From Sorangium aterium (GTDB taxonomy: Bacteria; Myxococcota_A; Polyangia; Polyangiales; Polyangiaceae): a stretch of DNA of 64,000 nucleotides. Position 1 is the stretch's first letter. Each line of letters opens with the position of its first letter. Location: the NCBI RefSeq assembly GCF_028368935.1, contig NZ_JAQNDK010000002.1, forward strand, positions 2,170,001 to 2,234,000, given 5' to 3'. Position numbers and translations under genes: made by a program. Positions 34,806-52,272 of this stretch are shown here, piece after piece. The notes under the pieces are model-generated. The model searched no databases and had not been told where the DNA came from. It was given only the letters and a program-made list of their open reading frames with translations.

Positions 34806-37800
34806 TCAGCGACCCTTCCCGGCCCCCAGGCTCTCCAGCGCCTGCTCCGCGTCGCGCCGGTAGGCGTTGTCGGTCGGCGCCGTCTCCAGGAAGCGCTCGT
34901 AGTGGTGGATGGCCCTCTCGCGGTTGTTCGTCGCGCGGAGCGCCTCGGCGAGGAGGAAGTGCGCGTCGAACAGCCACGGCGGGGTCGAGCGGTCCGGCGC
35001 CTCGCCCAGGGTGACCGCCTGCTCCATCTCGCTCGCGGTCCCGGCCCGGTTGCCGCGCGACGCGTAGATCTTGCCGAGGCGGTAGTGCCACTCGGGGACC
35101 TTGTCGTTGGCCGCGATCGCCTTGCGCCACGCCTCCTCCGCCGCCGCCCAGTTGCCCTGATCCTGGTAGCAGAGCGCCATCGTGGCGTAGGCCTCGTAGC
35201 GGGACGGCCGCTTCTCCAGCGCGATCTTCAGATCCGCCAGCGCGTCCCGGCTCGCCCCCTGCTTCTGCAGCAGCACGCCGCGCTGCCAGTACGCGTCGCC
35301 GAGCTCCGCGTCGAGCTCCAGCGCGCGCCTCAGCGCCATCTCCGCGCGCGCGGTCTGGGCCGTCTCGTTGGCGCCCCAGCCGACGTACAGGTGGTACTCG
35401 GCGCGGTTCGGGTCGAGCTCCGCGGCGCGCTCCAGGAAGCGCAGCGCCTCGGCCATGTTCGTGCCGCGCACGAGGAGCGCGCGGCCGAGGAAGTGGTTCG
35501 CCTCGGCGGAGTTCGCGCGATCCTTGAGCACGTCGCGCAGGATCGGCTCCGCCTGGCTCGCGTGGCCCGCCATGACCTGGGTCGAGCCGACGCGCAGCTT
35601 CAGGTCGATGTCGTTCGGCGCCTTGCGGAGCGCGTCGGCGTACATCTCCAGCGCGCGCTCGCTCTGGCCGGTCTCCTCGAACAGGAGCCCGCGCTCGAGC
35701 GCGAGGCCCGGGTAGTCCTTGTCGGCCGCCGTGACCTTGTCGAAGACCTTCGCGGCGTCCTCGAACCGGCGCAGGCGACGGTACGCCACGCCCAGCTTGA
35801 ACTGGCTGCCGAGGTCGTCCTCCTTCGCGAGCGCGAGCTCGAGCTCCTGCCGGGCTTCGTCGTAGCGTCCGGTCTGGAGCGCGACCTCCGCCTTGGCCTT
35901 GTGCAGCGCGGGCAGGTCCGGGAACTTCGCCGTCGCCTCCGACAGCTTCTCCGCCGCCGCCTCGTTGCGGCCCATGCTGGACAGGAGCGACGCCAGCGCC
36001 ACGTAAGCGTCGACGACCTCCGGGAGGTTCTCGGTCGACTTCACGGCGTCGAGGTACGCCTGCTCCGCGTCCTTCTTGTTGCCGAGCGCGAGCTCGGTGC
36101 GCCCGAGCCAGTAAGCGACCTGCGGGGCCGCCGCGTGGGTCTTCTGCAGCTCCTTCAGGAGGTCCTTCGCCTCCTTCATGCGCTCCTGCGCCAGCCAGGT
36201 CTTCGCCTTGCCGAGCTGCGCGGCGAGGTTCTTGTCGTCGGCGCGGGCCGCGGCCTCGAAGCGCGCCTGCGCCTCGGAGTAGCGGCCCGACCGGTAGAGG
36301 ACCTCGCCGTTGCCGATCAGGGCGCGCACCGCCTGCGGGTCGAGCTTCACCGCGGCGGCGAACGCCTGCTCTGCCGCGCTCATGCGCGACTTCGCAAGGT
36401 GGATGGCGCCGAGCAGCGTGTACGCGTCGACGATCTCGGGGTCGCTCGCGGCGGCCCGGATCGGGCCGTCGCCGGTGACCTTGCCGAGCAGATCGAGCGC
36501 CTCCTGCTCGCGGCCCGGGGTCTGCCAGAGGAGCGACGCGATCAGGGTGCGGGCCCCGACGTGGTCGGGTGAGGCCTCGAGCGCGCCTCGGGCGCTCGCC
36601 TCGGCCCCCGCGGCGTCCCCGGCGAGGAGCTGCGCCCGGGCCAGGCCGTAGAGCGTGCGCGCGCTCTTCTGGATGCCGCTCGCGTGCTGCCACGCCGCGA
36701 TCGCCTTGGGGGCGTCCTTGGCGGCGAGCTCGATCTCGGCAGCGAGGACGGCGAGGTCGATGTCGTCCTTGAGCTGCGCGGCGAGCGCCTGCGCGGCCTG
36801 CCGCGCGCGCGGGAGCTCGCCGCTGGCCGCGGCCTGCGCCGCGGCGGCCAGGGAGAGCAGGTCGCTCGGATGGGAGCTCGCGAGCGTGAGCATCTCCTTG
36901 CCGAAGGCGTCGTCGACGGTCCGGTGCCCGAAGCGGATGCTCCGCGCGAAGGCGATGTACGCGGCGTAGGCCATGGTCGGCCGGTGGCGCGGCGCATTGC
37001 CGCGCGCGGCGTTGGCGTCGTTCAGCGCTCCGTTGGCGGCCGACGCGGTGTCCTTGCCGAAGGCCGCCTGGGTCCGCTGGCGGAGCTCGGCGAGCGCCCC
37101 TTCGTGCGCGAAGGCGTTGAGCCGGTCGCTGATGAGGTTCACGCCGAAGGCGCCGACGTCCGGAACGAGCGCCAGCGCGCCGCCGCTGACGGCGGCGACA
37201 GCGAGCGCCGCCACGACGTAGCGCTTGATCTTCGACTTTTGCGGCGGTGCTTCCGTGGTCGCCGCGGGCTTCGCGACCTGCGCCTCGGGACCGGCGCTCA
37301 GGTCGCCGATCTCGGTGCCCGCGCCGGTGAGGTCGACCTCGTCCCCGACGCTGGGGTGCGGCTCGCTGAGCTCGATGCCCCGATCGTCGGCGTCCGCGGG
37401 CGATTGCGTGAAGTTCCCGGAGCGGTCGGACGGATCGTAAGGGGCGGGCGCGGCGCCGGGGACGAGCTGCGTGACGCTCTCGCCGAGCGCGATCTCGTCG
37501 CCGAAATCGGCGACGCCGAAGCCTGCGTTGGGCGAGGCGCCGAAGCTGGTGGTGGGCGCGGCGCGGACGTCGGAGGGCGGCGCGGCGCCGAAGCCGGTGG
37601 TGGGCGCGGCGCGGACGTCGGAGGGCGGCGCGGCGAGGAAGTCGGCGGGCGGCACGGCGCCGAAATCGACCGGCGGCATGGCGCTGCTGCTGGGCGGCTC
37701 GGGCGCTGCCTGCGGCGGGAGGGGGCGCGGCCCGGGCGCCTGGAATGCGGCGCCCACGCGAGAGTCGTCGTAGTCCGGCGGGGCCTCGTCAAAGAGCTCG

Positions 37801-39146
37801 GCGCCGACGATGGTCCCTGGTCCGGCAGGCGAGCCGGCACCGGTGGCCTTCGTGGGGAGGGCGGAGCCGGCGGTCTTCGTGGGGAGGGCGGAGCCGGCGG
37901 TCTTCGTGGGGAGGGCGGGGCCGGTGGCCTTCGTGGGGAAGCCCGCGGGGGCCGGGGCGGGGAAGCCCGCTTGGGCCGGGGCGGGGAAGCCCGCCTGGGC
38001 CGCGGCCGGGAGCCCGGCGCGAGCCGGCGAGGGAAGCTGCGCGGAAGCCGGCGTGGGCAGGCCCGTGTTCGAGAACGGAGCGGGCATGCCGATGACGGCC
38101 GGGGCCGAGCTCGGCAGATCGCCGGCGACGATGGGCAGGTCGCCCGAGGACGCCGAGGGCAGCTCGGAGTCGCCGTCGCCCTCGAGAGGCAGCTCGAGCT
38201 CGCCGAAGCCGAACGACATGGAGCCGCCGGTGGAGCGCGCCGGAGGAGCCGGGGGCGCGTCGTCGTCCAGGTCCCCGAAATCGTACTCCGGGGCCACGCG
38301 CGGGGGCGCGTCTGCCGCACCGCGGGTGCGCCCGCGCCCGAGCGGCTGCGTGGCGGCCCCGGCGTTTCGCGCGCCGAGCCCCGCGTCGCGCGCGCCGGGC
38401 CCCGAGGGGGCGCCCGGCGCCGACTCTCGCTCGCCGAACCCGAGGGTGCGCCGGCTGCTCGGAGGATGCGGCTCGACCCGCGCCGGCAGGTCGGCCCCGG
38501 AGAACGCGGTCGGCGTCGCCGGGGCGGTGCGGGACTCCGCGCGCGAGCGCGCCGGGAGCGCCGACGCCCCTGGCGCATTGCCGTAGACGACAGGCAGATC
38601 GTCCGGGTTGAGCCCCTGCACCTCGACGTCCGTCGGGCTCGGGAGCTCGACCATGAGGTCGATCTCGCCAAAGCCGCGCCGCTGCGGCACGGTCTTGGCG
38701 TTTCGCCGATCGGACGGCGCAGGGCGATCGGGGACGTCCGGCAGGCCGATCTCGCCGAAGACCTCCGGCCCCGGGGGCTCAGGAGGCGGCGCGGGCGCCG
38801 CGGGCGCCGCGCGGCGCGGCGGCGTCGGTACCGGCGCCGCCGCCGGCCCCGGGCGCCGTGGAGGCACGACGGCGGGGAATGCGACATCCTCCGGAGCCGC
38901 CACGGGCAGATCGGCGTCCTCGGGCCCCGCCGGGGCGCTCCGCTCCGAGAGCTGAAGACCTCCCGCCCCGGCCCGCGGCGGGGGGGTGGGCACAGGCGTC
39001 GGCGCAGGCGCTGCGCTCGCGCCCCCCTTGGTCACCAGCAGGCTCGTACCGCACTTCGGACAGCGCATCCTGAGCCCCGCAGGGGGGACACGCTTCTCGT
39101 CGACTTGGTACGGCGATTTGCACCCGTCGCACTCGACCTTGATCAT
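34806..39146 (-). CDS. Giant zinc-ribbon / single-TM / TPR protein
   Basis: 1446 aa from ATG 39146. N-terminal zinc ribbon of the MJ0042 type: CDGC, 17 residues of spacer region, CPKC (IKVECDGCKSPYQ, RMRCPKCGTSLL). Then about 600 residues of Pro/Ala-rich disordered sequence with acidic FGELELPLEGD-like patches and 8- and 9-residue repeats. A transmembrane helix (RYVVAALAVAAVSGGALALV) is followed by some 20 TPR units (e.g. AYTLLGAIHLAKSRMSAAEQ, LAKAKTWLAQERMKEAKDLL) to the C-terminus. The TPR half should be outside the cytoplasm and scaffold an envelope assembly. Start chosen because it precedes the zinc ribbon; upstream frame is Arg/Pro-rich noise. Confidence 0.82.
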   Translation of the reverse strand: MIKVECDGCKSPYQVDEKRVPPAGLRMRCPKCGTSLLVTKGGASAAPAPTPVPTPPPRAGAGGLQLSERSAPAGPEDADLPVAAPEDVAFPAVVPPRRPGPAAAPVPTPPRRAAPAAPAPPPEPPGPEVFGEIGLPDVPDRPAPSDRRNAKTVPQRRGFGEIDLMVELPSPTDVEVQGLNPDDLPVVYGNAPGASALPARSRAESRTAPATPTAFSGADLPARVEPHPPSSRRTLGFGERESAPGAPSGPGARDAGLGARNAGAATQPLGRGRTRGAADAPPRVAPEYDFGDLDDDAPPAPPARSTGGSMSFGFGELELPLEGDGDSELPSASSGDLPIVAGDLPSSAPAVIGMPAPFSNTGLPTPASAQLPSPARAGLPAAAQAGFPAPAQAGFPAPAPAGFPTKATGPALPTKTAGSALPTKTAGSALPTKATGAGSPAGPGTIVGAELFDEAPPDYDDSRVGAAFQAPGPRPLPPQAAPEPPSSSAMPPVDFGAVPPADFLAAPPSDVRAAPTTGFGAAPPSDVRAAPTTSFGASPNAGFGVADFGDEIALGESVTQLVPGAAPAPYDPSDRSGNFTQSPADADDRGIELSEPHPSVGDEVDLTGAGTEIGDLSAGPEAQVAKPAATTEAPPQKSKIKRYVVAALAVAAVSGGALALVPDVGAFGVNLISDRLNAFAHEGALAELRQRTQAAFGKDTASAANGALNDANAARGNAPRHRPTMAYAAYIAFARSIRFGHRTVDDAFGKEMLTLASSHPSDLLSLAAAAQAAASGELPRARQAAQALAAQLKDDIDLAVLAAEIELAAKDAPKAIAAWQHASGIQKSARTLYGLARAQLLAGDAAGAEASARGALEASPDHVGARTLIASLLWQTPGREQEALDLLGKVTGDGPIRAAASDPEIVDAYTLLGAIHLAKSRMSAAEQAFAAAVKLDPQAVRALIGNGEVLYRSGRYSEAQARFEAAARADDKNLAAQLGKAKTWLAQERMKEAKDLLKELQKTHAAAPQVAYWLGRTELALGNKKDAEQAYLDAVKSTENLPEVVDAYVALASLLSSMGRNEAAAEKLSEATAKFPDLPALHKAKAEVALQTGRYDEARQELELALAKEDDLGSQFKLGVAYRRLRRFEDAAKVFDKVTAADKDYPGLALERGLLFEETGQSERALEMYADALRKAPNDIDLKLRVGSTQVMAGHASQAEPILRDVLKDRANSAEANHFLGRALLVRGTNMAEALRFLERAAELDPNRAEYHLYVGWGANETAQTARAEMALRRALELDAELGDAYWQRGVLLQKQGASRDALADLKIALEKRPSRYEAYATMALCYQDQGNWAAAEEAWRKAIAANDKVPEWHYRLGKIYASRGNRAGTASEMEQAVTLGEAPDRSTPPWLFDAHFLLAEALRATNNRERAIHHYERFLETAPTDNAYRRDAEQALESLGAGKGR
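37848..38010. repeat. 27-bp and 24-bp in-frame repeats in the disordered linker
   Basis: Four 27-bp units with CTTCGTGGGGAGGGCGG cores start at 37848, 37875, 37902 and 37929 (encoding PTKTAGSAL-like 9-mers). Three 24-bp units with GGAAGCCCGC cores start at 37937, 37961 and 37985 (encoding 8-mers of FPAPAQAG type). Both periods are multiples of three, so length change keeps the frame. Confidence 0.85.
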
Positions 39147-39528: not shown

Positions 39529-40128
39529 ATGCAGCGCTCGACGGCGGTCATCTACACGCTCTTCTTCGCGGGCGCGCTGGCGTTCGTCATCACGAACGGC
39601 GGCTCGAAGGGGCGCGGCGCGGCCAGCGCGCCCGCCGACGCAGGCGCCGACGCCGTCGACGCCGCCGCCGCGCCTGCGACGACCGCGGCGGGCGACGGCG
39701 ACGCGGGGAGCGACGCCGGCGCAGAGGACATCGTCCAGGAGAGGGGCCCCGAGCCGGCGGGGCGATCCGACGCGGGCGTCACGCTCCTCTCGGGCGAGGC
39801 GCCGCCCTCGCTGCCGGCCGAGGCGCCGAAGAAGGTGCGCTTCGGCGTCGTGCTGATCCAGTACCGCGGCGCGCAGGGCGCGGCGCCGACCGCGCGCTCC
39901 AAGGACGCCGCGCTGGCGCTCGCCCGGGAGCTCGCCGAGGTGGCCAAGACGGACTTCAAGGCCGCCATCGAGAAGGGCGACAAGGGGTCGACCGACGACC
40001 TCGGCTACATCCCGCGCGGCGTGCTGGAGCCCGCGCCGGAGTACGAGCTGTTCAGCCTCCCCAAGGGGGGCGTGGGCGGCCCTGTCGACACGCCGCGCGG
40101 CTTTTGGATCGCGCGTCGGATCGAGTAA
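39529..40128 (+). CDS. Membrane-anchored parvulin-like (PpiC) peptidyl-prolyl isomerase domain protein
   Basis: 199 aa. One N-terminal hydrophobic helix (VIYTLFFAGALAFVI) acts as anchor or uncleaved signal, then an Ala/Asp-rich linker of about 75 residues. The C-terminal 100 residues follow the rotamase fold: FGVVLIQYRGAQGA, RSKDAALALARELAEVAK, DDLGYIPRGVL and VDTPRGFWIARRIE. The typical central His of parvulins near the first strand is not obvious, so activity is uncertain. It may be a periplasmic folding aid or a pseudo-isomerase. Confidence 0.7.
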   Translation: MQRSTAVIYTLFFAGALAFVITNGGSKGRGAASAPADAGADAVDAAAAPATTAAGDGDAGSDAGAEDIVQERGPEPAGRSDAGVTLLSGEAPPSLPAEAPKKVRFGVVLIQYRGAQGAAPTARSKDAALALARELAEVAKTDFKAAIEKGDKGSTDDLGYIPRGVLEPAPEYELFSLPKGGVGGPVDTPRGFWIARRIE

Positions 40129-40184
40129 GTAGAGCGTACCGCGCGCGGCGCGTCGCCGCGGACGCGAACGAGTGGAGATACCGC

Positions 40185-40481
40185 ATGGCGACGATCGACA
40201 TCCGCCGGCAGCACGCGCTCACCAAGGACGAGGCCAGGAAGCGCGCGGAAGAGCTTGCGCGGGGCATGGAAGACAAGCTCGGCATCCAGTGGCGATGGGA
40301 CGGCGACGTCATCCGGTTCGAGGCGCCGGGCGGCGCCGCGAAGGGGACGAAGGGCCTCGTGCGCGTCGAGGCGTCCGCTGTCCATGTCGAGATCGACCTC
40401 CCGTTCCTGCTGAAGGCGATGAAGGGCATGGTCGAGTCGAAGGTCAACGACAAGCTCGACGCCGTGCTGGGCAGGGCCTAG
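40185..40481 (+). CDS. Polyhydroxyalkanoic-acid-system family protein
   Basis: 98 aa from ATG 40185 with GGAG eleven bases upstream. IDIRRQHALTKDEARKRAEE, GIQWRWDGDVIRFEAPG, and DLPFLLKAMKGMVESKV fit the small PHA_gran_rgn family (about 90-100 aa, alpha-beta). Members occur near polyhydroxyalkanoate genes, but there are no PHA synthesis genes in this window, so the link to storage granules is by family name only. It follows the parvulin-like gene by 56 bp. Confidence 0.8.
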   Translation: MATIDIRRQHALTKDEARKRAEELARGMEDKLGIQWRWDGDVIRFEAPGGAAKGTKGLVRVEASAVHVEIDLPFLLKAMKGMVESKVNDKLDAVLGRA

Positions 40482-40818
40482 CTCGCGAGCGGGCGACCTC
40501 CTCCCCTCCCGCGCGCCGCGGGGCCCGCGAGCGCGCCCACCGTTCTTCGCTTTCCGGTGGTTCCGGCGGCACGCGGTCGACCAGCGCGCTCCGCGGATCT
40601 CCTCGCCGGGCGCGGGGCGCGCGCACATTCGTGTCCGCCGCTCGACCCACGGACGCGCGCGGCCTGGCGCTCGCCTGGGTGCTCGACCGCGCGCCCGACG
40701 CTGTTCGAGCCCGCTCCCTGCCCGGCGCGCTTTACTCCGTCAGGTTCGGTTCGCTACTCTCCGCCATCGTCATGCGGTGCGCACAGATGAGACCCCGTTC
40801 GGAGGCGTCGCGAGCGAG
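40482..40818. other. 337-bp gap before the giant TPR pair
   Basis: No gene was supported. The end holds a possible earlier GTG start (40777) for the TPR gene, in frame and 14 codons upstream of the ATG used, and GGAGG at 40801-40805. I saw no clear promoter hexamers or repeats. Confidence 0.5.
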
Positions 40819-43800
40819 ATGACGGTTCAGGCACCCGAGGGGCAGGCCGAGAGCATGACGGCCCTGATCGCGCGGCTCCGCGCGGAGCAGGGCGAGCAAC
40901 CGGAGCGGCAGCTCCAGGCGCTCTTGCTGCACGAGCTGGGCGCGCTCGAGGAGGCGCTCGGCGAGGAGCCCACGGCGGCGCGCGACTACCTCGCCGCGTT
41001 CAACGCGGATCCGCAGTTCCGCGAGCCGCTCGAGGCGCTGGTCCGCATCCTCACGCGGCGCAAGTCCATCAAGAACCTCGGCAAGCTGCTCGACGCGCTC
41101 ACGCGCGCCGCGGCCACGCCCGAGGAGCGGGCGCGCTCGTTCTGGGAGCGCGCGGCGTACCTCCAGGACCACGAGCAGAACCTCGCGGCGGCCAAGGAGG
41201 CGCTCGAAGAGGCGGCGCTCAGCAACCCGGAGGACGCGACCCCGTGGCTCGAGCTCGAGCTCATCGCGGCCAAGGAGGGGGACCTCGCGGGCCGGATGCG
41301 CGCCCTCGAGGCCCGCGCGGAGCTCGCGACGGACGCGACGTGGAAGGGGCTGCTCTTCATCGAGCTCGCCGACCTCGCGGCGGCGACCGAGAACGTGGAG
41401 CGCGCCTACGAGCTGCTCGACGCGGCCGCCGCGCTCGAGGGGCGGGCGCGCTTCAGGTCGCAGCTCGCGCTCGAGGTCATCGCCCGGCGCGAGGAGGACC
41501 TCGGCGCGCTCGCGCGCGCCCTCGAGGGGCAGGCGGAGCTCATCGCCGACGCGCTCGACGACGAGGCGAGCGGCGACGCCAACGGCGTCCCGCGGCACAT
41601 GCGCAAGCCGGAGCACGCGGCCGACGCGTGGCTCCGCGCCGCCGAGCTGACGCAGCGGGCCGGGACGGGCGGCTTCGCGTCGCTCCTCGAGCGGGCCGCG
41701 GAGCGGCTGCCGCAGTCGACGCTGCTCGGCCGGGCGCGCATCGCCGCGCTCGAGTCGGCCGGCGAGGCCGAGGCCGCCGCCAGCCTGGCCAAGCAGGAGA
41801 TCGCGCGCGGCGCGAGCGGGCCCGGCGCCGCGGCCCTGTGGCTCCGCGTCGCCGAGGCGGCGGCGCTCGCGAGCGATCGCGAGGCCGCGCTCGCGGCGCT
41901 CCGGAGCGCGCTCACGGCCGACCCGCAGTGCATCCCGGCGCGCGCGCTGGAGATCGATCTCCTCGGAGACGGCCAGGACCCGTCCGCGTTCGCGGCCTCG
42001 CTCGAGGCGACGGCGGCCTCGTACGCCAGCGACGAGGCGAGGGGGCGCGCGATGCTCCTCGCGGCCTACGTCTGGGCGGTGCGGACGGACGACGTCGGCG
42101 CGGCGAAGGCGGCCCTGTCGCAGGCGGGCATGGCCGGCGTCCACCCGGGCGTGCTCGCGCGCTTCGGTCGGTCGTTCGCGGCGCTCCGCGGCGACGCGGC
42201 CTGGTACGAGGAGTCGACGAAGCGGCTGCTCTCGACCGGCGTCGACCCGGCCGAGAAGGCGAGCCTGTGGTTCGAGATCGGCCGGAGCCGCCTCCTCCGC
42301 GGGGACGCGGACGGCGCCGAGGGCGCCTTCGCCGAGCTCGCCAACGCCGGCGCGGACGACGGCGCCACGCCGAACGCGTGGCTCGGGCGGGCGCTCGGCG
42401 CCTTCGCTGTCGATCTCGTCCGCAGCCGGCGCGAGCGCGGCGACGAGCCCGGCGCCGCCGGCCCGCGGCGCTCGCCGACGGTCATCGAGGCGCTCGCCGA
42501 GGTCGAGGGCGAGGAGACCGCGCGCGGGCTGTGGCTCGTCGCTGCCCTGCGCAGCGCGCGCGGCGGCGATCTGGATCGCGCCCGGAGCCGGCTCCGCGCG
42601 CTCTTCGAGCGATCCGCGGACGACGAGGTCATCGCGGTGTTCCTGGCCGAGCTCCACCGGCGCGCCGGGAGCCACACCGCCGCGGCCGCGACGCTCTCGG
42701 CCTGCGCCGCGGCGATCGACGACGCCGATCTCTCGGCGGCGCTGCACATCGAGGCGGCGATCCTGCTCTGGCGCGCCGGCGAGCGCGGGCGCGCCGTCGA
42801 GGAGCTCGAGGCGGCGCGCGGCAAGGCGCCGCGGGCTGGCGCGACGGTGCTCACCTGGGCCCTCCGCGGCCACGAGGCGAGCGATCTGGAGAGCCGGCGC
42901 CGCGCCCTCGAGGTCGCGGGCGAGGCGGGCGAGGACCCGGCGGCGCTCGCGCTGTCGCGGTTCGGCCTTGAGGTCGGCGCGGCCGAGGGCGGCGACGCCG
43001 ACGAGGCGCTCGCGACGCTCGAGGCGCTGGAGTCGCAGGCGAGCGACGATCTCGCCCTAGCCGCCGCGCTCGGGCGGCTCCTCTGGCAGCCGGCCCTCGA
43101 GCAGCGGAGCGCCGTCGAGCGCGCGCTCGACTACATCGAGGAGCGGGGCGACGGCGCCGCGACGATCGCGCACGCCGAGCGCTTCCGCCTCGCGCGCACC
43201 CTGGACCAGGATCGCGCGAGCACCGCGGCGCGCGCGGCGGCGTGGGCCGCGGCCGACCCGAGCCCGCACGCCGAGCTCGAGTGGCTCGGCGCCGCGCTCG
43301 GCGCCGAGGACCGCGAGGCCGAGGTGGCCGCGCGGAGCGCGCTCGCGCGGCACATGGACGGCGAGGCCCGCGCCGCGATGGAGGCCTCGGCCGCGATCGT
43401 CGGCGCGCTCGACCAGCCGAACCTGCCGCGGCCGTTCCTGACGGGCGAGCACGCGCCCGCGCAGCTCGCCAACCTCGAGCTCGCGCTCCCCGGCTGCGAT
43501 CCGCGGCGCCGCGCCGCGGCGCTGCACGGGCTCGGGGACGCGCTCGGCGAGGACGCGCAGCTCACCGCGCTCGGCCTCGCGGGCTGGTCGGACTTCGCGG
43601 CCGGGGAGCACGAGCGCGCGCTCGCCGCGTTCCGCACGGTCGTCGAGCGGCGGCCCGACGACGTCGCCGCCTGGGAGGGCGTCCGCGCGACGTCCGAGGC
43701 GCTGCGCGACCCCGTGTCGACGGCGCTCGCCTCGGCGCAGCTCGGGGCGCTCTGCAAGGACGACGCGCGCGGCGCGGGGTTCTGGGAGAGCGCCGGGCTC

Positions 43801-45591
43801 CTGCTCCTCCAGCACACCGAGGCGCACGACGACGCGGAGATCGCCTTCGATCGCGCGTTCTCGCGCGACCCGCGGCGCGGCGTCGCCTTCGACCGGCTCT
43901 TCCGCCGGGTCCGCGCGCGCAACGAGGACGATCGGCTGCTCGACATCATCGAGAGGCGGCTCGGCGTGGCGGACAACGACCTCGAGCTCTGCAAGCTGTT
44001 CTGGGAGCGCGCGCGCGTGCTCCGCAAGAAGGGCAAGCTCGACGACGCGCTCGCCGCGCTCGAGAACGTGACGCTGCTCGAGCCGGACCACATCGGCGCG
44101 CTGGCGCTCTCGGCCGACATCTCGAAGGCGCAGGGCGACCTCGGCCAGGCGGCCGCCTTCTACGCCGAGCTCTCGCGCGTCGCGAAGGCGCCGGGGGAGC
44201 AGCGCCTCATGTCGGGGATCACCGCGGTCGACGCCTACGAGAAGCTCGGCGAGCACGACAGGGCGCTCGAGGTGCTGGTCGGCCTGCATCGGGCCGGGCT
44301 GTCGACGCTCGTCGTCCGCGAGCGCCTCGTCCGCGTCGCCGCCCGGGTCGGCTCCTGGGACGAGGCGACGCGCCTGCTCGAGGAGCTCATGGTCGAGCGC
44401 GACACGCCCGCGGGGCGGATCGAGGCGGCGCGCCTCGCGATGGCCATCTACAGGGATCAGCTCCGCGCGCCGCGCCGCGCCGAGCGGGCCGTGGCGAAGC
44501 TCCTCGAAGAGGCGCCGGACGACGGCGAGGCGATCGATCTCGTCCTCACGACGGACTACGAGCCCGCGTTCCGCACCCGCGTGCTCGGCCGCGCCAAGGC
44601 GACGCTGATCCAGGCGCTCGCGGTCGAGCCGATCGACGCGGACCGGGTCGCGCTCCTCGCGAAGATCGCCGGCGCGGGGCAGGACGCGGCGCTCCGGCAG
44701 GCCACGCTCGGCGCGCTCGTCTCGCTCGTCCGCATCGACGACGGCATCTCCGCGGAGCTCAGGAAGATCGACGCCCGCGTCCCGGCGCGGCCGCAGATCG
44801 CCCTCGACGCCAAGGCCATGGCCGACATCGCCGATCCGCTCGACACCGGGCCCGTCGGCGAGCTGTTCGCGAAGATGGCCGAGACCATCTGCATGGCGCT
44901 CGGCCCCTCGCTCGTGTCGCTCGGCGTCGGCAAGAAGGACCGCATCGACTCGCGCGGCGGCCACCCGCTGCGCGTGGCGGTCGCCGAGTGGATGGGGGCG
45001 CTCAGCTTCGAGACGGACTTCGAGCTCTACGTCGGCGGCCCGAGCCCCCACGGCGCGACCGGCGTCTATGGCCAGCTGCCGGCGCTCGTGCTCGGCCCCG
45101 AGATCACGACGCCGCTCGACGCCGCCTCGCGCTCGGCGATCGCGCGCGAGGCGTTCGCGCTGCGCCGCGGCATCTCGTCGCTCAGGACGCGGGACGACAG
45201 CACCGTCGCCTCGCTCGTCGCGGCCGCGTGCATCGAGGCGGGCTTCACGGTCCCGCAGCCGCCCTACGCCGTCTTCGGCGAGGTCTCGCGCGCCATCCAC
45301 AAGGAGATGTCGCGCGCGACCCGCAAGGCCATCGCCGACGTCTGCCAGCGCATCGTCTCGAGCCAGCAGGACCCGCTCCGCTGGGCGCAGGCCGCGCGCA
45401 GGAGCATCGACCGCATGGCCGTCATCGCCGCCGGCGACGTCTCGCTGGTCCTCTCGGACATCCTCAATACCCCGCGCGAGCAGCTCGGCGGTGTCGTCGC
45501 CGAGAGCGAGCGGGCGCGCCAGCTTGTCGCGTTCGTCCTCTCGCAGAGCTACCTCGAGCTCCGGAAGAAGCTCGGCATGGGGGTCCGGTGA
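40819..45591 (+). CDS. Giant TPR/helical-repeat protein, first of a coupled pair
   Basis: 1590 aa from ATG 40819 (GTG 40777 is an alternative). Nearly all helical, Ala/Glu/Leu-rich, with degenerate TPR pairs throughout (AAYLQDHEQNLAAAKEALEE; DAYEKLGEHDRALEVLVGLH). No signal peptide or membrane helix is seen, so it is cytoplasmic. The last about 290 residues change character: KKDRIDSRGGHPLRVAV, FELYVGGPSPHG, LPALVLGPEI, KEMSRATRKAIADVCQRI, then AAGDVSLVLSDI and YLELRKKLGM. That domain recurs in divergent form at the end of the next protein. Its stop overlaps the next start as GTGA. A scaffold is inferred; function unknown. Confidence 0.8.
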   Translation: MTVQAPEGQAESMTALIARLRAEQGEQPERQLQALLLHELGALEEALGEEPTAARDYLAAFNADPQFREPLEALVRILTRRKSIKNLGKLLDALTRAAATPEERARSFWERAAYLQDHEQNLAAAKEALEEAALSNPEDATPWLELELIAAKEGDLAGRMRALEARAELATDATWKGLLFIELADLAAATENVERAYELLDAAAALEGRARFRSQLALEVIARREEDLGALARALEGQAELIADALDDEASGDANGVPRHMRKPEHAADAWLRAAELTQRAGTGGFASLLERAAERLPQSTLLGRARIAALESAGEAEAAASLAKQEIARGASGPGAAALWLRVAEAAALASDREAALAALRSALTADPQCIPARALEIDLLGDGQDPSAFAASLEATAASYASDEARGRAMLLAAYVWAVRTDDVGAAKAALSQAGMAGVHPGVLARFGRSFAALRGDAAWYEESTKRLLSTGVDPAEKASLWFEIGRSRLLRGDADGAEGAFAELANAGADDGATPNAWLGRALGAFAVDLVRSRRERGDEPGAAGPRRSPTVIEALAEVEGEETARGLWLVAALRSARGGDLDRARSRLRALFERSADDEVIAVFLAELHRRAGSHTAAAATLSACAAAIDDADLSAALHIEAAILLWRAGERGRAVEELEAARGKAPRAGATVLTWALRGHEASDLESRRRALEVAGEAGEDPAALALSRFGLEVGAAEGGDADEALATLEALESQASDDLALAAALGRLLWQPALEQRSAVERALDYIEERGDGAATIAHAERFRLARTLDQDRASTAARAAAWAAADPSPHAELEWLGAALGAEDREAEVAARSALARHMDGEARAAMEASAAIVGALDQPNLPRPFLTGEHAPAQLANLELALPGCDPRRRAAALHGLGDALGEDAQLTALGLAGWSDFAAGEHERALAAFRTVVERRPDDVAAWEGVRATSEALRDPVSTALASAQLGALCKDDARGAGFWESAGLLLLQHTEAHDDAEIAFDRAFSRDPRRGVAFDRLFRRVRARNEDDRLLDIIERRLGVADNDLELCKLFWERARVLRKKGKLDDALAALENVTLLEPDHIGALALSADISKAQGDLGQAAAFYAELSRVAKAPGEQRLMSGITAVDAYEKLGEHDRALEVLVGLHRAGLSTLVVRERLVRVAARVGSWDEATRLLEELMVERDTPAGRIEAARLAMAIYRDQLRAPRRAERAVAKLLEEAPDDGEAIDLVLTTDYEPAFRTRVLGRAKATLIQALAVEPIDADRVALLAKIAGAGQDAALRQATLGALVSLVRIDDGISAELRKIDARVPARPQIALDAKAMADIADPLDTGPVGELFAKMAETICMALGPSLVSLGVGKKDRIDSRGGHPLRVAVAEWMGALSFETDFELYVGGPSPHGATGVYGQLPALVLGPEITTPLDAASRSAIAREAFALRRGISSLRTRDDSTVASLVAAACIEAGFTVPQPPYAVFGEVSRAIHKEMSRATRKAIADVCQRIVSSQQDPLRWAQAARRSIDRMAVIAAGDVSLVLSDILNTPREQLGGVVAESERARQLVAFVLSQSYLELRKKLGMGVR

Positions 45592-48500
45592 GCAAGAATC
45601 CGCAATCCAAGAGCTCCTCTGGCGGCGGCGGCGACGAGGGCGCGCCGTCGCAGGAGAAGATCACGGTCCCCCCGCCGGCGATGTACGGCGCGGCGGTCTC
45701 GGAGGAGGGCGACGTCGAGGAGGCCACGCTCCTCGCGAAGATCCCCGAAGAGCTGATCCAGTCGATCCGCGGCGCCGAGGAGGGCGAGCGCGCCGGCGTA
45801 GGCGGCCTGAAGCAGCTGTTCTCCCGCGAGCACGTGCCCGCGCCCGCGAGGCCCGCGCAGAGCGCCGGAGAGAGCGACGCGCTGCTCGACATGCTGTTCG
45901 AGGACCAGCGCGCCGAGGACGCCGACGACGGGGTCGTGACCTCGGCGCCGGCGTTGCACGGGACGCGCCGGCCCCCGGCGCCCATCCCGCCGCCGCGCCC
46001 CCCGTCGCTGCCCCGCCCCGCGGCCCCGCCCCGCTCGGGCAAGCCGGACGACGTGAAGGCGTCGCTCGGCGCCGAGCCCACGCCCGGCGCGCCCGGTGAT
46101 CGCACGCCCAGGATCCCGCCTCCGGCCCCGTCCGCGAGGTTCACGGCGCCGCGCCCGCAGCCCGCCACCCCGCCGCCCCCGCTGCCGCCGCCGTCCGTGC
46201 GCCGGGAGCCCGTGTTCGAGGAGGACACCGCCGAGCCGGGCGACCGCGCGACGCCCATCCCCGACGGCGGCGACTCCCCGTTCGAGTTCGCGCCGCCCAG
46301 CGGCGCCAGCAGCGCCCGGTTCGCGGATGCGTCCGCCTTCGACGACGAGGAGACGCACGGCATCGACGACGAGGAGACGAACGCCCTCGACGAGCCCGGG
46401 CCCACGACCCGGCCGTACGCCGGCCAGTCGTCCGCCTCCACCAGCCGCTGGGACCAGGCCGCCGCCGACAGCGATCCCGGCGAGCTCGTGGACGAGTCCA
46501 GCCTGCTGAGCGGGCCGCCCGAGCCGACCGATGAAGAGCTCGAGGACGATCTCGCGCAGACGCGCGTCGCGACCCGGAGACCCGACAGCGGCGTCGCGTT
46601 CGCGCCGCCGCGGCCGTCGTCGTCGTCGCCGCGCGCGCCGTCGTCGTCGCCGCCGCGACCGTCGTCCTCGTCGCCACGCGCAGCGTCATCGCCGTCGCGC
46701 CCGTTCGCGGCGTCCCACGTCCGGCCGTCGTTCGTGCCGACGTCGACGTCGTCGCCGCGCGCGCCGTCGTCGCCGCCGCCGCGGCCGTCGTCGGCCCGCG
46801 TCCCGTCGGCGCCTCCTGCGGGCCCGTCGTCGCCTCCTTCCCTCGCGCCGGAGAGCCTCCCGCCGCTGCCGTCAATCCCGCCGCCCGCCTCGGTGTTCGA
46901 CGGCGAGCAGGACGCGAGCGCGATCCTCGTCCAGTCGCAGCAGCGCGACGTGTGGGCGGCGCGCGCCGCATGGCTCCGCTCCGAGGCCGAGCTCATCGAG
47001 GACCCCGCGGCCCGGGCGCGGGCGCTGCTCCCCGTCGCCGAGCTCTACGTGATGGCCGGGGAGGACGCCGCCGCCAGCGCCATCGCCGCCGAGGCGCGCG
47101 ATCTCGCCCCGAGCCTGATCTTCGCGCACCGCCAGCTCCGCGGCCTCCTGATGCGCGAGGGGGATCTGCCCGCCGCGCTCGAGGCGCTGGAGAGCGAGAC
47201 CCGCGTCCTCGGCACGCCGGCCGCGCGCTGCCACAACCTCGTGCTCGGCGCGGAGCTCTGCCGCATCCCGCTCGCGGATCCCGAGGGCGCCCACAAACGC
47301 TTCGAGCTCGCGGCGCGGACGCACCCCGCCGATCCGCGCGCGCACGTCCAGCGCTTCTGCGAGGCGCTCGCCGCGCCGGACTCGGACGCGGCGGCCTCCG
47401 CCGTGATCGCGAAGTTCCGCCTCCCCGAGGCGCCCGAGCTCGCGCCGCTCGCCGCGGCGAGCGCTCAGGTCGCAGCGCACCGCGGCGCGGCGCGGCCGGC
47501 GCGCGGCCGCGCCGCCTCCGCCACGCCGTACGAGGCGCTGCTCCGCGCCCGCGCCCTGCTCCGCGCCGGCGACCTCGCCGAGGGCCTCGCGAGCCTCGAT
47601 CCCCTGCGTGGCACCTCGCTCGCGCCCGCCGTCGCGTGGCTCACCGCCGCGCTGAGCGCCGCGCGCAAGGAGACCCGCCCGGCGTCGCTCGGCGCGCTCC
47701 GCAGCGTCGCCTCCGGCTCGCACGGCGGCCAGGCGCGCCGCGCCCTCGCGGCGCAGGCGATCGAGCTCGGCGACGCCGCCGCCGTGCGCGACGCGACGCT
47801 CGACGACGGCGACGCCGGCGGCGCCTTCTCGCCGGCCGATCGCATCGTCCTCTCGGCGCTCGCCGGCGGCGCCGCGGGCGAGATCGACCCGTGGCTGGAC
47901 GCCCTCGCCGACGATCCCGACTTCGCGCCGCTCTGCGCCGCGGCGAGCGCCGCCCTGAGCGACGCCGGCGGCGACGGCGCGGTGGCCTCCGCGGACGGCG
48001 CGCCCGCGTCGCGGGGCGTGCGCCCCCTCGGCGGCCCGAGGGCCCGCGCCGCCGCGGCCCTCGGCCGCGCGCTCTCGCGCGAGGCCGTCCCGGCGGAGGG
48101 CGGCGTCGACGCGAGCGACGCCTTCTCCCGCGCGGTCGTCACCTACGGCGACACCGCGCCGGAGAGCCCGCTCTTCCGGGCCCTCGCGCTCGAGCTCGAT
48201 CTCGACGGCGATCGCGGCGCCCGCGTCGCCAGGGCCGTGGCGTCGCTGCGCGAGGTCGCGTCCGAGCGCGACGGCGCGCTCGCCGCCGCCGTCCTCGCGG
48301 AGATCGCGGGCGATCAGCGCGCGGCGATGGGCGATCTCGATCGCGCCCGCGCCGCGGACCCGCAGCACGAGGGCGCCGCGCGCGCCCGCGCCGCCCAGGA
48401 GAGCGGCGTCGGCGCGGCCCGCATCCTCGCGGAGCACGCGCTCACGCTCGACGAGGGGCCGCGGGCCGCGGTGCTCGTCACCGAGGCGGCGATCCGCCTG

Positions 48501-51500
48501 CTCGACGGCGGCGACAACGAGGAGGGCGAGCGCCTGCTCTCGCGCGCCGCGCAGATCGATCCGAAGCTCCCCGTCGCGCTCCACCTCGGCGAGCGGAGCG
48601 CGCGCGCCCGGGTGGACCGCGACGGCCTCCTCGAGTGGCTCAGGACCCGCCGCGAGGGCGCCGCCGATCCCCTCGAGCGGGCCCACGATCTCGTCCGCGA
48701 GGCGCTCCTCGTCGCCGAGGCCGACCCCGCGGCCGCCGCGTCGCTCCTCGAGACGGCGCACCGCTCGCGCCCGCAGGACATCGGCCTGCGCGAGCTCTTC
48801 GAGCGGCTCGCGCCGGAGCCGCCCGCCGACCGCGCCTCCTGGCGCGCCGAGCGCGCCGCCGAGCTCCTGCGCGCCCTCCAGAGCGAGGGTGAGGGCGGCG
48901 ACGGCGGCGGCGACCGCGCCGCCGCGGGCATCGAGGCCGCTCGCCTCGCGCTCGAGGCCGCCCTCGACCACGAGCGCGCCGGCGATCTCGCGCAGGCCGC
49001 CGCGTGCGCCCGCCAGGCGATCGCCGCCGGGGACACGGCGCTCGCGCCGATCGCCCTCTACCGCGCGGCCGTCGCGGGCCACGGCACAGGAGAGCTCGTC
49101 GACGCCCTGATCCCGCGCGCTCGCGAGGCGGCGGACGCGGCGGAGCGCCTCGACATCTACGAGCGCCTCGCGGAGCTCGACGAGCAAGGGCGCAAGGACG
49201 CCGGCAGCGCCCTGCTGTGGCGCCGCTCCATCCTGGAGGAGACGCCGCACCACCTGCCGACGCTCCGCCGCGTCGCCTCCTACCTCATCGGCGAGGGCCG
49301 CGACGAGGAGCTCGAGCCGATCGCCCTCGAGATCGCGCGTGTCCTCGACGGCCCGGAGGCGATCGCCCACGCGCTCCTGTCGGCGCGGCTGCGCCTGCGC
49401 GTGCTCCCGTGGGAGGAGGCGCTCGAGCCGGTCCAGATCGCGTACAGGAACGAGCCCCGCGGCATCTGGGCGCTGCGCCAGATGGCCGCCCAGGCCCGCG
49501 CGAAGGCGGATCACGCCCTCGCGATCGAGGCGGATCGCCAGCTCATCGAGCGCACCGATCGCCCGTCCGAGGCCGCGGCCCTCTCGGTGCGCGCCGCCAG
49601 GGACGCCCTGCTGGCCGGCTCGATCGAGGACGCCGTCGCCTTCTTCCGGCACGCGATCACGCTCGTCCCGCACTACCTCGTCGCGCACCTCGACCTCGCC
49701 GACGCGCTCGATCGCGGCGGCGACCCGGCGGCCGCCGCCGCGGCGCTCGAGTCCGCCGCGGGCGCGAGCGTCGGCCCCGAGGGGCGCGCGCACTCGCTCT
49801 ACGCCGCGGCCGTCCTCTGGCAGGACAAGGTCCAGAACGTCGCGCGGGCGCGCGACGTCCTCGAGGCGGTCGCCACGGTCGATCCGTCGTACGCCGACGT
49901 CTTCGCGCGGCTCAGGGCCATCTACATCGCCGAGGGGGCGCGCGCCGAGCTCGCCGCGCTCCTCGAGCGCCGCCTCGAGGCGGTGACCGATCCCGCCGAG
50001 CGGGTCGAGATGGAGGTCCTGCGCGGCCGGGCGCTCGCCGACGTCGGCGACGCGGCGGCCGCGAAGCGCGCGCTCGCCGCCGCGCTCGACGCGAACCCCG
50101 ATCACGTCGAGGCCCTGTCCGCGTTCGCCGACGTCTGCGCCGGCGAGGGCGACTGGGCCGGCGCCGAGCAGGCGTGGATCCGCCTCGCGCGCCTCGTGCC
50201 CGAGCCCGCGAAGCAGGTCGCGATCTACCTCCGCCTCGGCGAGCTCTACGACGAGCACCTGCCGAACGCGGAGCGCGCCGAGCTCGCCTACCAGGAGATC
50301 CTGAAGCGCTCGCCGGGCGACGTGAGCGCGCGCGAGCGCCTCGTCTCGCTCTACAAGCGCGCTGGCGACGGCGCCCGCGCGCTCGAGCAGCAGAACCTCC
50401 TCATCAACGCCGCCGAGGCGCCCGAGCAGAAGTGCCGCCGCACCGCGGAGCTCGCCGAGATCTACGAGGCGATGGGGGACGCGAAGAAGGCCGAGGCCAC
50501 GCTGCTCACGGCCCGCAAGACGTGGCCGAAGGACGACTTCGCGCTCGGCGCGCTGGCCCGCTACTACCAGCGCACCGAGCAGGCCTCCGCGGCGGCGACC
50601 CTGCTCGATCGCGCGCTCGCCGACGCGCGCCGCGCGCTCAACACCGGCCGCTTCGAGCCCTACCTCTTCTCGACGGTCGCGACGGTCGCGGAGCTCCGCG
50701 GCCGCGCCGGCGCCGCGAGGATCGCGCGCGCGACGGTCGACGCGCTCGACGGCCGCGACGCCGCGATGGGCGGCGCGGGCAACGCCGCCGGCGCCGCCCG
50801 CCTCGACGCCCACCTCGCGCCGGAGCTCATGACCCCGGCGTTCCGGGAGCTCCTGCTCAAGACGGGCCCGCTGCTCGACGCCGCGGTGCCGTTCGATCTC
50901 GACTCTATCCGCGCGACGCCGCTGCCGCCCCAGCACGCCGAGATCACCGATCTCGCGCGCGGCGTCGGCGCGGCGTACGGCCTCCCCAACCTGCAGGTCT
51001 TCATGACGGGCGCGCTCGGCGCCGTCTGCGTGCCGGCGTCCACGAGCCCGCCCAAGATCGTCCTCGGCCAGGCCCTCGTCACCTCGCCGCGCGAGGACGT
51101 CCGGCTCGCCCTCATCCACCGCGCCGTCAAGATCCTCCAGACCAACGCCTCGGCCTTCTCGCGGACGGCGCCGATCGATCTCTGGCCGCTGCTCGCGGCT
51201 TACCTGAAGGCGTTCGTCCCGACGTGGTCGCCGCAGGGCGCGGACGCCGGGCGCCTGCGCGAGTACCACGGCCGCATCGAGCGGGTGATGGCGGGCGGCG
51301 TGGATCCGAAGATCAGCGTGCTCGCCGCCGACGTCATCGGCTCGATCGGCAACCGCGCCTCGACGTTGAACACCGCGATCAACGGCTGGGGGAACCGCGC
51401 CGCGTTCCTCGCCGTGGGCGACATCAACGTCGTCCTCACGGGCATCGCCTGGTCCGGCGGCAACACGAACGCGCCGCCCGCCGCGGGCAAGGACCGCGTC

Positions 51501-51599
51501 ACCTGGATCGGGCGCAACGCGGAGGCGCGCGACCTCATCGTCTTCGCCGTGAGCGACGGCCTGACCGAGGCGCGGGAGCAACTCGGGTTCAACGAGTGA
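45588..51599 (+). CDS. Giant TPR/helical-repeat protein, second of a coupled pair
   Basis: 2003 aa, GTG start at 45588 overlapping the previous stop (GTGA). Residues 1-430 are disordered: a Ser/Gly start, acidic ATLLAKIPEEL, Pro-rich blocks and a (S/P)(S/P)RPSS-like repetitive tract. From about residue 435 the chain is TPR-like helices (ERLAELDEQGRKDAGSALLW; YLRLGELYDEHLPNAERAEL) to about 1770. The final region has PKIVLGQALVTSP, then VGDINVVLTGIAW and LTEAREQLGFNE, matching the end domain of the upstream protein (AAGDVSLVL..., YLELRKKLG). The two probably act together as a large cytoplasmic scaffold. An open frame extending far upstream is antisense-like noise within the first gene and was excluded. 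Confidence 0.8.
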   Translation: MSKNPQSKSSSGGGGDEGAPSQEKITVPPPAMYGAAVSEEGDVEEATLLAKIPEELIQSIRGAEEGERAGVGGLKQLFSREHVPAPARPAQSAGESDALLDMLFEDQRAEDADDGVVTSAPALHGTRRPPAPIPPPRPPSLPRPAAPPRSGKPDDVKASLGAEPTPGAPGDRTPRIPPPAPSARFTAPRPQPATPPPPLPPPSVRREPVFEEDTAEPGDRATPIPDGGDSPFEFAPPSGASSARFADASAFDDEETHGIDDEETNALDEPGPTTRPYAGQSSASTSRWDQAAADSDPGELVDESSLLSGPPEPTDEELEDDLAQTRVATRRPDSGVAFAPPRPSSSSPRAPSSSPPRPSSSSPRAASSPSRPFAASHVRPSFVPTSTSSPRAPSSPPPRPSSARVPSAPPAGPSSPPSLAPESLPPLPSIPPPASVFDGEQDASAILVQSQQRDVWAARAAWLRSEAELIEDPAARARALLPVAELYVMAGEDAAASAIAAEARDLAPSLIFAHRQLRGLLMREGDLPAALEALESETRVLGTPAARCHNLVLGAELCRIPLADPEGAHKRFELAARTHPADPRAHVQRFCEALAAPDSDAAASAVIAKFRLPEAPELAPLAAASAQVAAHRGAARPARGRAASATPYEALLRARALLRAGDLAEGLASLDPLRGTSLAPAVAWLTAALSAARKETRPASLGALRSVASGSHGGQARRALAAQAIELGDAAAVRDATLDDGDAGGAFSPADRIVLSALAGGAAGEIDPWLDALADDPDFAPLCAAASAALSDAGGDGAVASADGAPASRGVRPLGGPRARAAAALGRALSREAVPAEGGVDASDAFSRAVVTYGDTAPESPLFRALALELDLDGDRGARVARAVASLREVASERDGALAAAVLAEIAGDQRAAMGDLDRARAADPQHEGAARARAAQESGVGAARILAEHALTLDEGPRAAVLVTEAAIRLLDGGDNEEGERLLSRAAQIDPKLPVALHLGERSARARVDRDGLLEWLRTRREGAADPLERAHDLVREALLVAEADPAAAASLLETAHRSRPQDIGLRELFERLAPEPPADRASWRAERAAELLRALQSEGEGGDGGGDRAAAGIEAARLALEAALDHERAGDLAQAAACARQAIAAGDTALAPIALYRAAVAGHGTGELVDALIPRAREAADAAERLDIYERLAELDEQGRKDAGSALLWRRSILEETPHHLPTLRRVASYLIGEGRDEELEPIALEIARVLDGPEAIAHALLSARLRLRVLPWEEALEPVQIAYRNEPRGIWALRQMAAQARAKADHALAIEADRQLIERTDRPSEAAALSVRAARDALLAGSIEDAVAFFRHAITLVPHYLVAHLDLADALDRGGDPAAAAAALESAAGASVGPEGRAHSLYAAAVLWQDKVQNVARARDVLEAVATVDPSYADVFARLRAIYIAEGARAELAALLERRLEAVTDPAERVEMEVLRGRALADVGDAAAAKRALAAALDANPDHVEALSAFADVCAGEGDWAGAEQAWIRLARLVPEPAKQVAIYLRLGELYDEHLPNAERAELAYQEILKRSPGDVSARERLVSLYKRAGDGARALEQQNLLINAAEAPEQKCRRTAELAEIYEAMGDAKKAEATLLTARKTWPKDDFALGALARYYQRTEQASAAATLLDRALADARRALNTGRFEPYLFSTVATVAELRGRAGAARIARATVDALDGRDAAMGGAGNAAGAARLDAHLAPELMTPAFRELLLKTGPLLDAAVPFDLDSIRATPLPPQHAEITDLARGVGAAYGLPNLQVFMTGALGAVCVPASTSPPKIVLGQALVTSPREDVRLALIHRAVKILQTNASAFSRTAPIDLWPLLAAYLKAFVPTWSPQGADAGRLREYHGRIERVMAGGVDPKISVLAADVIGSIGNRASTLNTAINGWGNRAAFLAVGDINVVLTGIAWSGGNTNAPPAAGKDRVTWIGRNAEARDLIVFAVSDGLTEAREQLGFNE

Positions 51600-51638
51600 A
51601 GGCGGGCGGGCGCCCGTGCGCTACGCGCCGCCCGCGCC

Positions 51639-51707
51639 TCATCGCGTCATCGTCACACCGTCATCGCGCATCGCGTTCCTGACGCGTTCTCATCGCGTTC
51701 CCATCGC
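51639..51707. repeat. Irregular TCATCGCG direct repeats
   Basis: CATCGCG recurs at least four times (with CATCGTC and CATCGCA variants) between the giant TPR gene and the cysteine-cluster gene. Spacing is uneven, 5-20 bp. There is no gene in the 256-bp gap. Confidence 0.5.
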
Positions 51708-51855
51708 AGGATTGCGCCGTGGCGCTATGTTGAGCGCGCGTCGCGGCGAGCACTTCGCCGTCGCGGAGGCTTGCTCGGCCGCGTATGCTCCGCTGCCCGC
51801 CAGCGAGCGCTCGGCCTCTCCGCCCCGACATCGGCTGCACGTCCCCCCACGATCC

Positions 51856-52272
51856 ATGACGACGACCCTCAAGGCCAAGCCCCGCGTCTCTTACGATTGC
51901 TCGAAGTGCCCGGCGTACTGCTGCTCCATCTACGAGCGGGTCGAGGTGACGCCGCGCGATCTGCGGCGGCTCGCCCGCCATTTCGGCCTCACGCTCGAGG
52001 CCGCCGAGGCGCGCTTCACGAAGCGCTACAACGAAGAGCGCATCCTCCGGCGGCAGTCGGATCCGGTGCTCGGCCGCGTCTGCCGCTTCCTCGATCTCAC
52101 GACCCGCGGCTGCACCATCTACGAGGCCCGGCCCGAGGTCTGCCGCGATTACCCGGGCAGGCCGCGGTGCGGCTACTACGACGTGCTCCAGTTCGAGCGG
52201 GAGACGCAGGACGATCCCGACGTGATGCCGCTCGTGCAGATCACGTTCCGGTCCAGGACGCCGGCCGGTTAG
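51856..52272 (+). CDS. YkgJ-family cysteine-cluster protein
   Basis: 138 aa from ATG 51856. CSKCPAYCCS (C-x2-C-x3-CC) near the start, then a second set: VCRFLDL, RGCTIYEARPEVCRDYPGRPRCGYY. These cysteines form the zinc- or iron-sulfur-binding cluster of YkgJ (UPF0153) proteins. Function of the family is not established. It is separated by 37 bp from the end of the convergent oxidoreductase gene. Confidence 0.88.
   Translation: MTTTLKAKPRVSYDCSKCPAYCCSIYERVEVTPRDLRRLARHFGLTLEAAEARFTKRYNEERILRRQSDPVLGRVCRFLDLTTRGCTIYEARPEVCRDYPGRPRCGYYDVLQFERETQDDPDVMPLVQITFRSRTPAG

Follow-up and report, generated by a model that had tools for sequence, protein, structure and literature searches.

The stretch of DNA analysed here, a window of 64,000 nucleotides from Sorangium aterium (NCBI RefSeq assembly GCF_028368935.1, contig NZ_JAQNDK010000002.1, positions 2,170,001 to 2,234,000 of the forward strand; genome size 13.5 Mb), carries two adjacent genes, hereafter A and B, which encode giant tetratricopeptide repeat (TPR) proteins of 1590 and 2003 amino acids with homologous C-terminal domains (Table 1; positions are counted from the first letter of the window). 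The start of B was set at 45588 because of its overlap with the end of A, its own frame being open as far back as 43242, while a GTG at 40777 opens the frame of A 14 codons before 40819. An in-frame start of B at the same 4-base overlap is found in 37 of 47 orthologous loci, a count obtained with a script that favoured this start where several were possible. Pfam recognises TPR_8 (E 9e-8), TPR_6 and TPR_16 in A and TPR_19 (E 2e-6) in B. No 19-residue window with a mean of at least 1.8 was found in either protein by a hydrophobicity scan, made without a signal-peptide predictor, and both are probably cytoplasmic. The original prediction had given the same open reading frame (ORF) coordinates, protein lengths and GTGA overlap, which were borne out on re-reading. 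It had also described an extra disordered head of 430 residues on B, in agreement with the approximately 432 Pro/Ser/Ala-rich residues delimited by our composition rule, and the motif pairs it quoted from the two C-termini (LPALVLGPEI/PKIVLGQALV and YLELRKKLG/LTEAREQLG) are present in the sequence.

The similarity between the two C-termini, which these motif pairs had suggested, extends beyond the quoted strings, and homology along the whole of about 310 residues is well supported. A direct BLASTP comparison of the A and B tails gave an E value of 0.001 (42/181 identical residues), and aligning a profile built from 20 A-type tails with one built from 30 B-type tails gave a probability of 99% (E 5e-18, 295 columns). 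In the structural models of both tails the order of elements is nearly identical, with a helix, three strands, a long helix, further helices, a second long helix and C-terminal helices. In a tree of the domain built from 59 sampled rows, the 15 A sequences and the 18 B sequences each form one group (support 100/99), separate from the proteins at the GltI position discussed below, and more distant A-like rows, which were kept outside the A label, sit next to A; the deepest forks of this tree are weak (67/41).

Sequence searches of the tails against Pfam, NCBIfam and the PDB returned no domain, and the Pfam score cut-off of the M48 peptidase family (PF01435) was not reached by A, B or 10 paralogues. 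Structural comparison with VIA-align, by contrast, ranked zinc metallopeptidases first. For the B model the best matches were 3c37 (Z 8.8, 174 residues aligned, root-mean-square deviation (rmsd) 4.7), BepA (8.2), Ste24 (7.6), ZMPSTE24 (7.5), HtpX (7.5, rmsd 2.2 over 95 residues) and BlaR1 (7.2), and for the A model 3c37 (5.8, model residues 71–310), BepA (5.3), BlaR1 (5.1) and ZMPSTE24 (5.0), although values of Z below 8, or below about 13 for helical models, may reflect a common arrangement only. All of the first 16 rows for B were metallopeptidases, and row 17 (Z 5.2) covered residues 1–45 only. We therefore relied on the agreement of this ranking, which was itself seeded by Foldseek, with a separate profile test, because Z values alone are not decisive. 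Family profiles were compared with 32 HExxH-bearing M48 domains from related genomes, with shuffled and TPR profiles as controls; the set originally held 33 rows, and removal by hand of one that by eye looked like a wrong-frame reading (L176) left the outcome similar. The profile of the other paralogues matched M48 with a probability of 94% (E 1e-7), all sets together with 93% (E 4e-7) and B with 84%, while none of 40 column shuffles scored as high for any set and the TPR control reached 0.5%. In these alignments the HExxH and E-x-x-x-D-R motifs of M48 are in register with the family. A small earlier comparison of the family with M48 had given 55%, and a first profile comparison was discarded, its negative control (TPR region against M48) having scored 99%. 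For the B tail, the Z of 8.8 together with the profile match thus points to an M48-type fold, whereas the Z of 5.8 for A is suggestive only.

The residues that would bind zinc in such a fold are missing, and the loss of the site is well supported by the alignment. The first His is replaced in all 152 distinct rows (by Arg in 141 and Lys in 5) and the second His of HExxH in all 61 A rows; for B and the other paralogues no second His occurs among the listed residues, which cover 68/69 and 20/22 rows. The third-ligand Glu (E-x-x-x-D) is absent among the six commonest residues at its position in A (56/61 rows) and B (59/69) and is present in 3 of the 22 other paralogues. What is kept is the Glu of HExxH in 54/61 A rows and the Arg following the third-ligand motif in 148/152 rows, a feature shared with M48 peptidases together with the fold resemblance and the in-register profile match. 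We therefore call the tail a catalytically dead M48-like domain rather than an M48 peptidase, and it should not cleave. The statement of the original prediction that no known domain could be recognised in the tails is thus not supported. In regions L204 to L206, of which the ORF lists were consulted, no clear giant TPR protein with an active M48 domain was seen, and our searches of open-access literature showed no account of the dead-M48 identity or of a metalloprotease fold in connection with GltI.

The same domain caps proteins of approximately 3,850 to 4,180 amino acids that occupy the position of GltI in the gliding clusters of other Myxococcota and of S. aterium itself. In the latter, a member of 3852 amino acids on contig C3 lies downstream of gltE-like (E 1.4e-19) and gltG-like genes; in another genome a member of 4177 amino acids follows a GltG homologue (E 1.8e-119); and in a third, roughly 135 bases separate the end of a domain-bearing frame of 3928 amino acids from the start of the next gene, whose product is a gltJ-type zinc-finger protein that matches the GltJ profile with E 1.9e-36. 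All NCBIfam matches to GltE, GltG and GltJ stay below the curated cut-offs, hence the designation gltE-, gltG- and gltJ-like. A search with the GltJ family gave matches at E 0.001 in 223/235 genomes and also in 4/14 controls, and none above the cut-off (0/235), for which reason only the strong local match was used. Four of the giants (L219, L220, L221 and L223) match the A model with E 4e-17 to 4e-8 and the model of the paralogues with 4e-51 to 2e-37, and among these a gltG or gltJ neighbour was seen for L219 and L223 only. The gltG-like gene of S. aterium (L207:6187-8230) consists of two overlapping frames that match the halves of GltG (E 6e-38 and 2e-43), which could be either a split gene or a sequencing error.

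GltI, also known as AgmK (MXAN_4863), belongs to the gliding machine of Myxococcus xanthus and is a giant TPR protein with 4132 amino acids, encoded in the G1 cluster, where gltI is listed between gltG/H and gltJ. It is not counted among the signal-peptide proteins, and the gene group that includes it occurs only in Myxococcales and Bdellovibrionales, at times in multiple copies (PMC3169522). It has been termed a large scaffold (PMC13104615), and the Nfs complex is described as having no paralogues of GltI, J and K (PMC3858216). A and B resemble GltI as giant TPR proteins without signal peptide or transmembrane segment and share their terminal domain with the GltI-position proteins of other Myxococcota. 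Unlike the single chain of GltI they are split into two shorter proteins, B carries a disordered head, and no glt gene was seen adjoining them. Taken together, we consider the M48-like identity of the tails and their kinship with the GltI-position proteins likely, with good confidence. The proposal that the locus represents an undescribed system is therefore not supported in its strong sense, while the view of A and B as a two-component cytoplasmic scaffold is a fair description of paired TPR proteins with no membrane segment and homologous C-terminal domains.

The pair itself is conserved. Relatives of the A tail were found in 39/39 and of the B tail in 34/39 related genomes searched, many of the weaker matches being other family members. 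Of the 140 genomes of the phylum that were sampled, 69 contain a match to the A-tail profile, and the matching frame is often 3,300 to 4,200 amino acids long. Of 60 loci examined, 59 have a recognisable A and 48 a recognisable B, and B lies downstream of A in all 47 that hold both. Wherever at least 4.7 kb of sequence follows A, B is present, and in the 12 cases of A without B the sequence breaks off no more than 3.0 kb from A. From these sequence comparisons, A-B is probably a branch of the GltI-type scaffolds that consists of a conserved pair of genes, and no description of it, or of the Sorangium pair, was found in the open-access literature searched. S. aterium encodes at least six family members, namely A, B, the frame of 3852 amino acids, and proteins of about 1,770, 2,150 to 2,580 and about 930 amino acids, the last of which (L211:7617-10418) forms a long branch in the domain tree. 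Two candidate fusions of A and B were considered. One (L127) was rejected, as it leaves the domain part-way, probably through a frame error. The other, a single frame of 2779 amino acids in an order-level relative (L227:5618-13954), combines a full A part with TPRs that match the B profile and has no B cap; it is counted as a weak hint only, because TPRs match generically.

Table 1. Features of the A-B locus in the 64,000-nucleotide window of S. aterium.
Feature	Position	Strand	Basis
Divergent neighbour, 1446 amino acids: N-terminal zinc ribbon, long linker, one hydrophobic segment, TPR region	34806–39146	-	Pfam (Zn_ribbon_4, TPRs); hydrophobic window
PHA_gran_rgn-family gene, just upstream of A	40104–40481	+	Pfam (PF09650, E 4e-28)
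Gene A: TPR solenoid, no membrane segment, dead M48-like C-terminal domain	40819–45591	+	ORF; Pfam; hydrophobicity
A C-terminal region, 310 amino acids modelled, M48-like core from about 44869	44659–45588	+	AlphaFold (predicted local distance difference test (pLDDT) 94.5, predicted template modelling score (pTM) 0.92); VIA-align
HExxH position in A, REAFA, both His lost, R163 nearly invariant	45145–45159	+	Alignment columns
Conserved Arg in the E-x-x-x-D-R helix of M48	45412–45414	+	A 60/61, B 66/69, others 22/22 rows
GTGA, start of B over stop of A	45588–45591	+	Sequence; overlap start recurs in orthologous loci
Gene B: disordered head, TPR solenoid, dead M48-like C-terminal domain	45588–51599	+	ORF frame; Pfam
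B low-complexity head, probably disordered	45588–46883	+	Crude composition rule
Motif TLLAKIPEELI in B head	45726–45758	+	Recurrence in heads; shuffles
Motif ESDALLDMLF in B head	45870–45899	+	Recurrence in heads; shuffles
B C-terminal domain, dead M48-like, 320 amino acids	50637–51596	+	AlphaFold (pLDDT 94.2, pTM 0.93); VIA-align
HExxH position in B, RAVKI, R162 invariant in alignment	51120–51134	+	Alignment columns
Gene after B, CxxCxxCC putative metal-chelating domain	51616–52272	+	Pfam (PF03692, E 9e-11)

By the composition rule applied to the S. aterium protein, the heads of 48 B proteins range from 1 to 485 residues. Two short motifs recur although the heads of B orthologues otherwise diverge: TLLAKIPEELI in 15 of the 48 heads (0 in 200 shuffles) and ESDALLDMLF in 24 (at most 2 in shuffles), counts that apply to patterns defined after inspection of the heads and to a set in which several heads are close kin. 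These acidic-hydrophobic motifs look like docking sites.

We propose that A and B together make up a cytoplasmic scaffold of the GltI type, each contributing one of its two subunits, an explanation to which, as a whole, we assign a probability of roughly 45%. Each protein would consist of a long TPR solenoid, acting as a rod that binds clients or partners, with an M48-shaped cap at its end. The cap would serve as a binding module, most likely as the meeting point of A and B or as a grip on a common partner, the overlapping genes could ensure matched amounts of the two proteins, and the head of B would dock through its short motifs. Since GltI works together with the Agl-Glt motor, we infer by analogy that the pair could form a heteromeric cytoplasmic platform docked on an inner-membrane machine broadly similar in kind to Agl-Glt; a motor-like role of A-B is put forward tentatively, at less than even odds. 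This would give the C-terminal domain of a giant myxobacterial scaffold family, whose GltI-position branch belongs to the gliding machine, a structural identity, and would make it a case of a protease fold that has probably been turned into a binding module, here in scaffolds of 1,600 to 4,200 residues, with the conserved A-B pair as a two-part version for studying the role of the cap.

Several observations weigh against this proposal. On the structural side, both tail models are mostly helical, so that their Z values are not decisive alone, Foldseek on its own gave no significant match for the two models (best E 0.23 and 0.33), and the profile of A alone matches M48 weakly (6%). As to function, S. 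aterium encodes, besides A and B, a protein at the GltI position and three more paralogues, and a motor role of A-B is therefore not needed to explain gliding. Moreover, no gliding gene was found beside A-B, either by Pfam among the ten window neighbours, which include no FHA/TonB-type or other glt-like match, or by eye among the 14 commonest neighbour clusters of 48 loci.

The strongest alternative is that the A-B scaffold is unrelated to motility, for instance one for storage granules or for a housekeeping complex, and has only its domain architecture in common with GltI. The lack of a gliding gene at the locus and the presence of A-B in many uncultured lineages would fit this view, as would the PHA_gran_rgn-family gene that lies upstream in 20 of 42 loci (from a total of 59, the 17 with less than 2.5 kb of upstream sequence were set aside). 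However, in the other 22 this gene was not found beside A-B, and the same domain occurs in proteins at the GltI position, and we regard a role apart from motility as a genuine possibility that falls short of an even chance. A second alternative sees the solenoids as chaperone-like holders of large clients, with the dead peptidase domain as a client gate, after the manner of Escherichia coli BepA, which combines M48 and TPR folds and ranks second in VIA-align for both models. In BepA the M48 domain comes first and the TPRs after it, whereas in A and B the TPRs precede the cap, no hydrophobic segment is present and the M48 active site is not intact. BepA acts in the biogenesis and degradation of LptD, but does so as a periplasmic and active zinc peptidase (PMC8423444), and we consider a similar role for A-B improbable. 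A third reading, in which the tail still works as a metallopeptidase, always or under certain conditions, and A-B forms a self-processing protease scaffold, is hardly credible, despite the resemblance to M48/M56 peptidases and the Glu of HExxH retained in most A sequences, in view of the missing first His, of the second His absent from all A rows and of the third-ligand Glu that is not among the listed residues of A and B.

If A and B do form a GltI-type scaffold, the zinc-ribbon protein encoded divergently from A is a possible membrane partner. Its gene, whose start we set at the zinc ribbon, has counterparts in 23 of the 42 loci with room. Like GltJ, which has a zinc finger, a transmembrane segment and a TonB-like tail, it combines an N-terminal MJ0042 zinc ribbon with one hydrophobic segment; unlike GltJ, its C-terminal part consists of TPRs. 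A stretch of 44 residues matches GltJ at E 2e-4, far below the GltJ cut-off, and MJ0042 ribbons are common, so that the likeness is a lead only. A link of either this gene or the PHA_gran_rgn gene to A-B is unproven. In the most far-reaching version of our proposal, A and B would pair through their dead M48 caps, so that the two giant solenoids are joined in an asymmetric platform. This two-chain counterpart of GltI would serve a second motor complex of Polyangiales, as yet undescribed and either focal-adhesion-like or envelope-spanning, and the acidic motifs of B would dock on a partner in the inner membrane, for example the zinc-ribbon protein; this version is conceivable and rather unlikely.

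Apart from the genes directly upstream of A, eight other genes of the window were compared with Pfam. Three of them had no match, and the others encode two kinases, an amine oxidase type flavoprotein, an MlaE protein and the CxxCxxCC protein that follows B.

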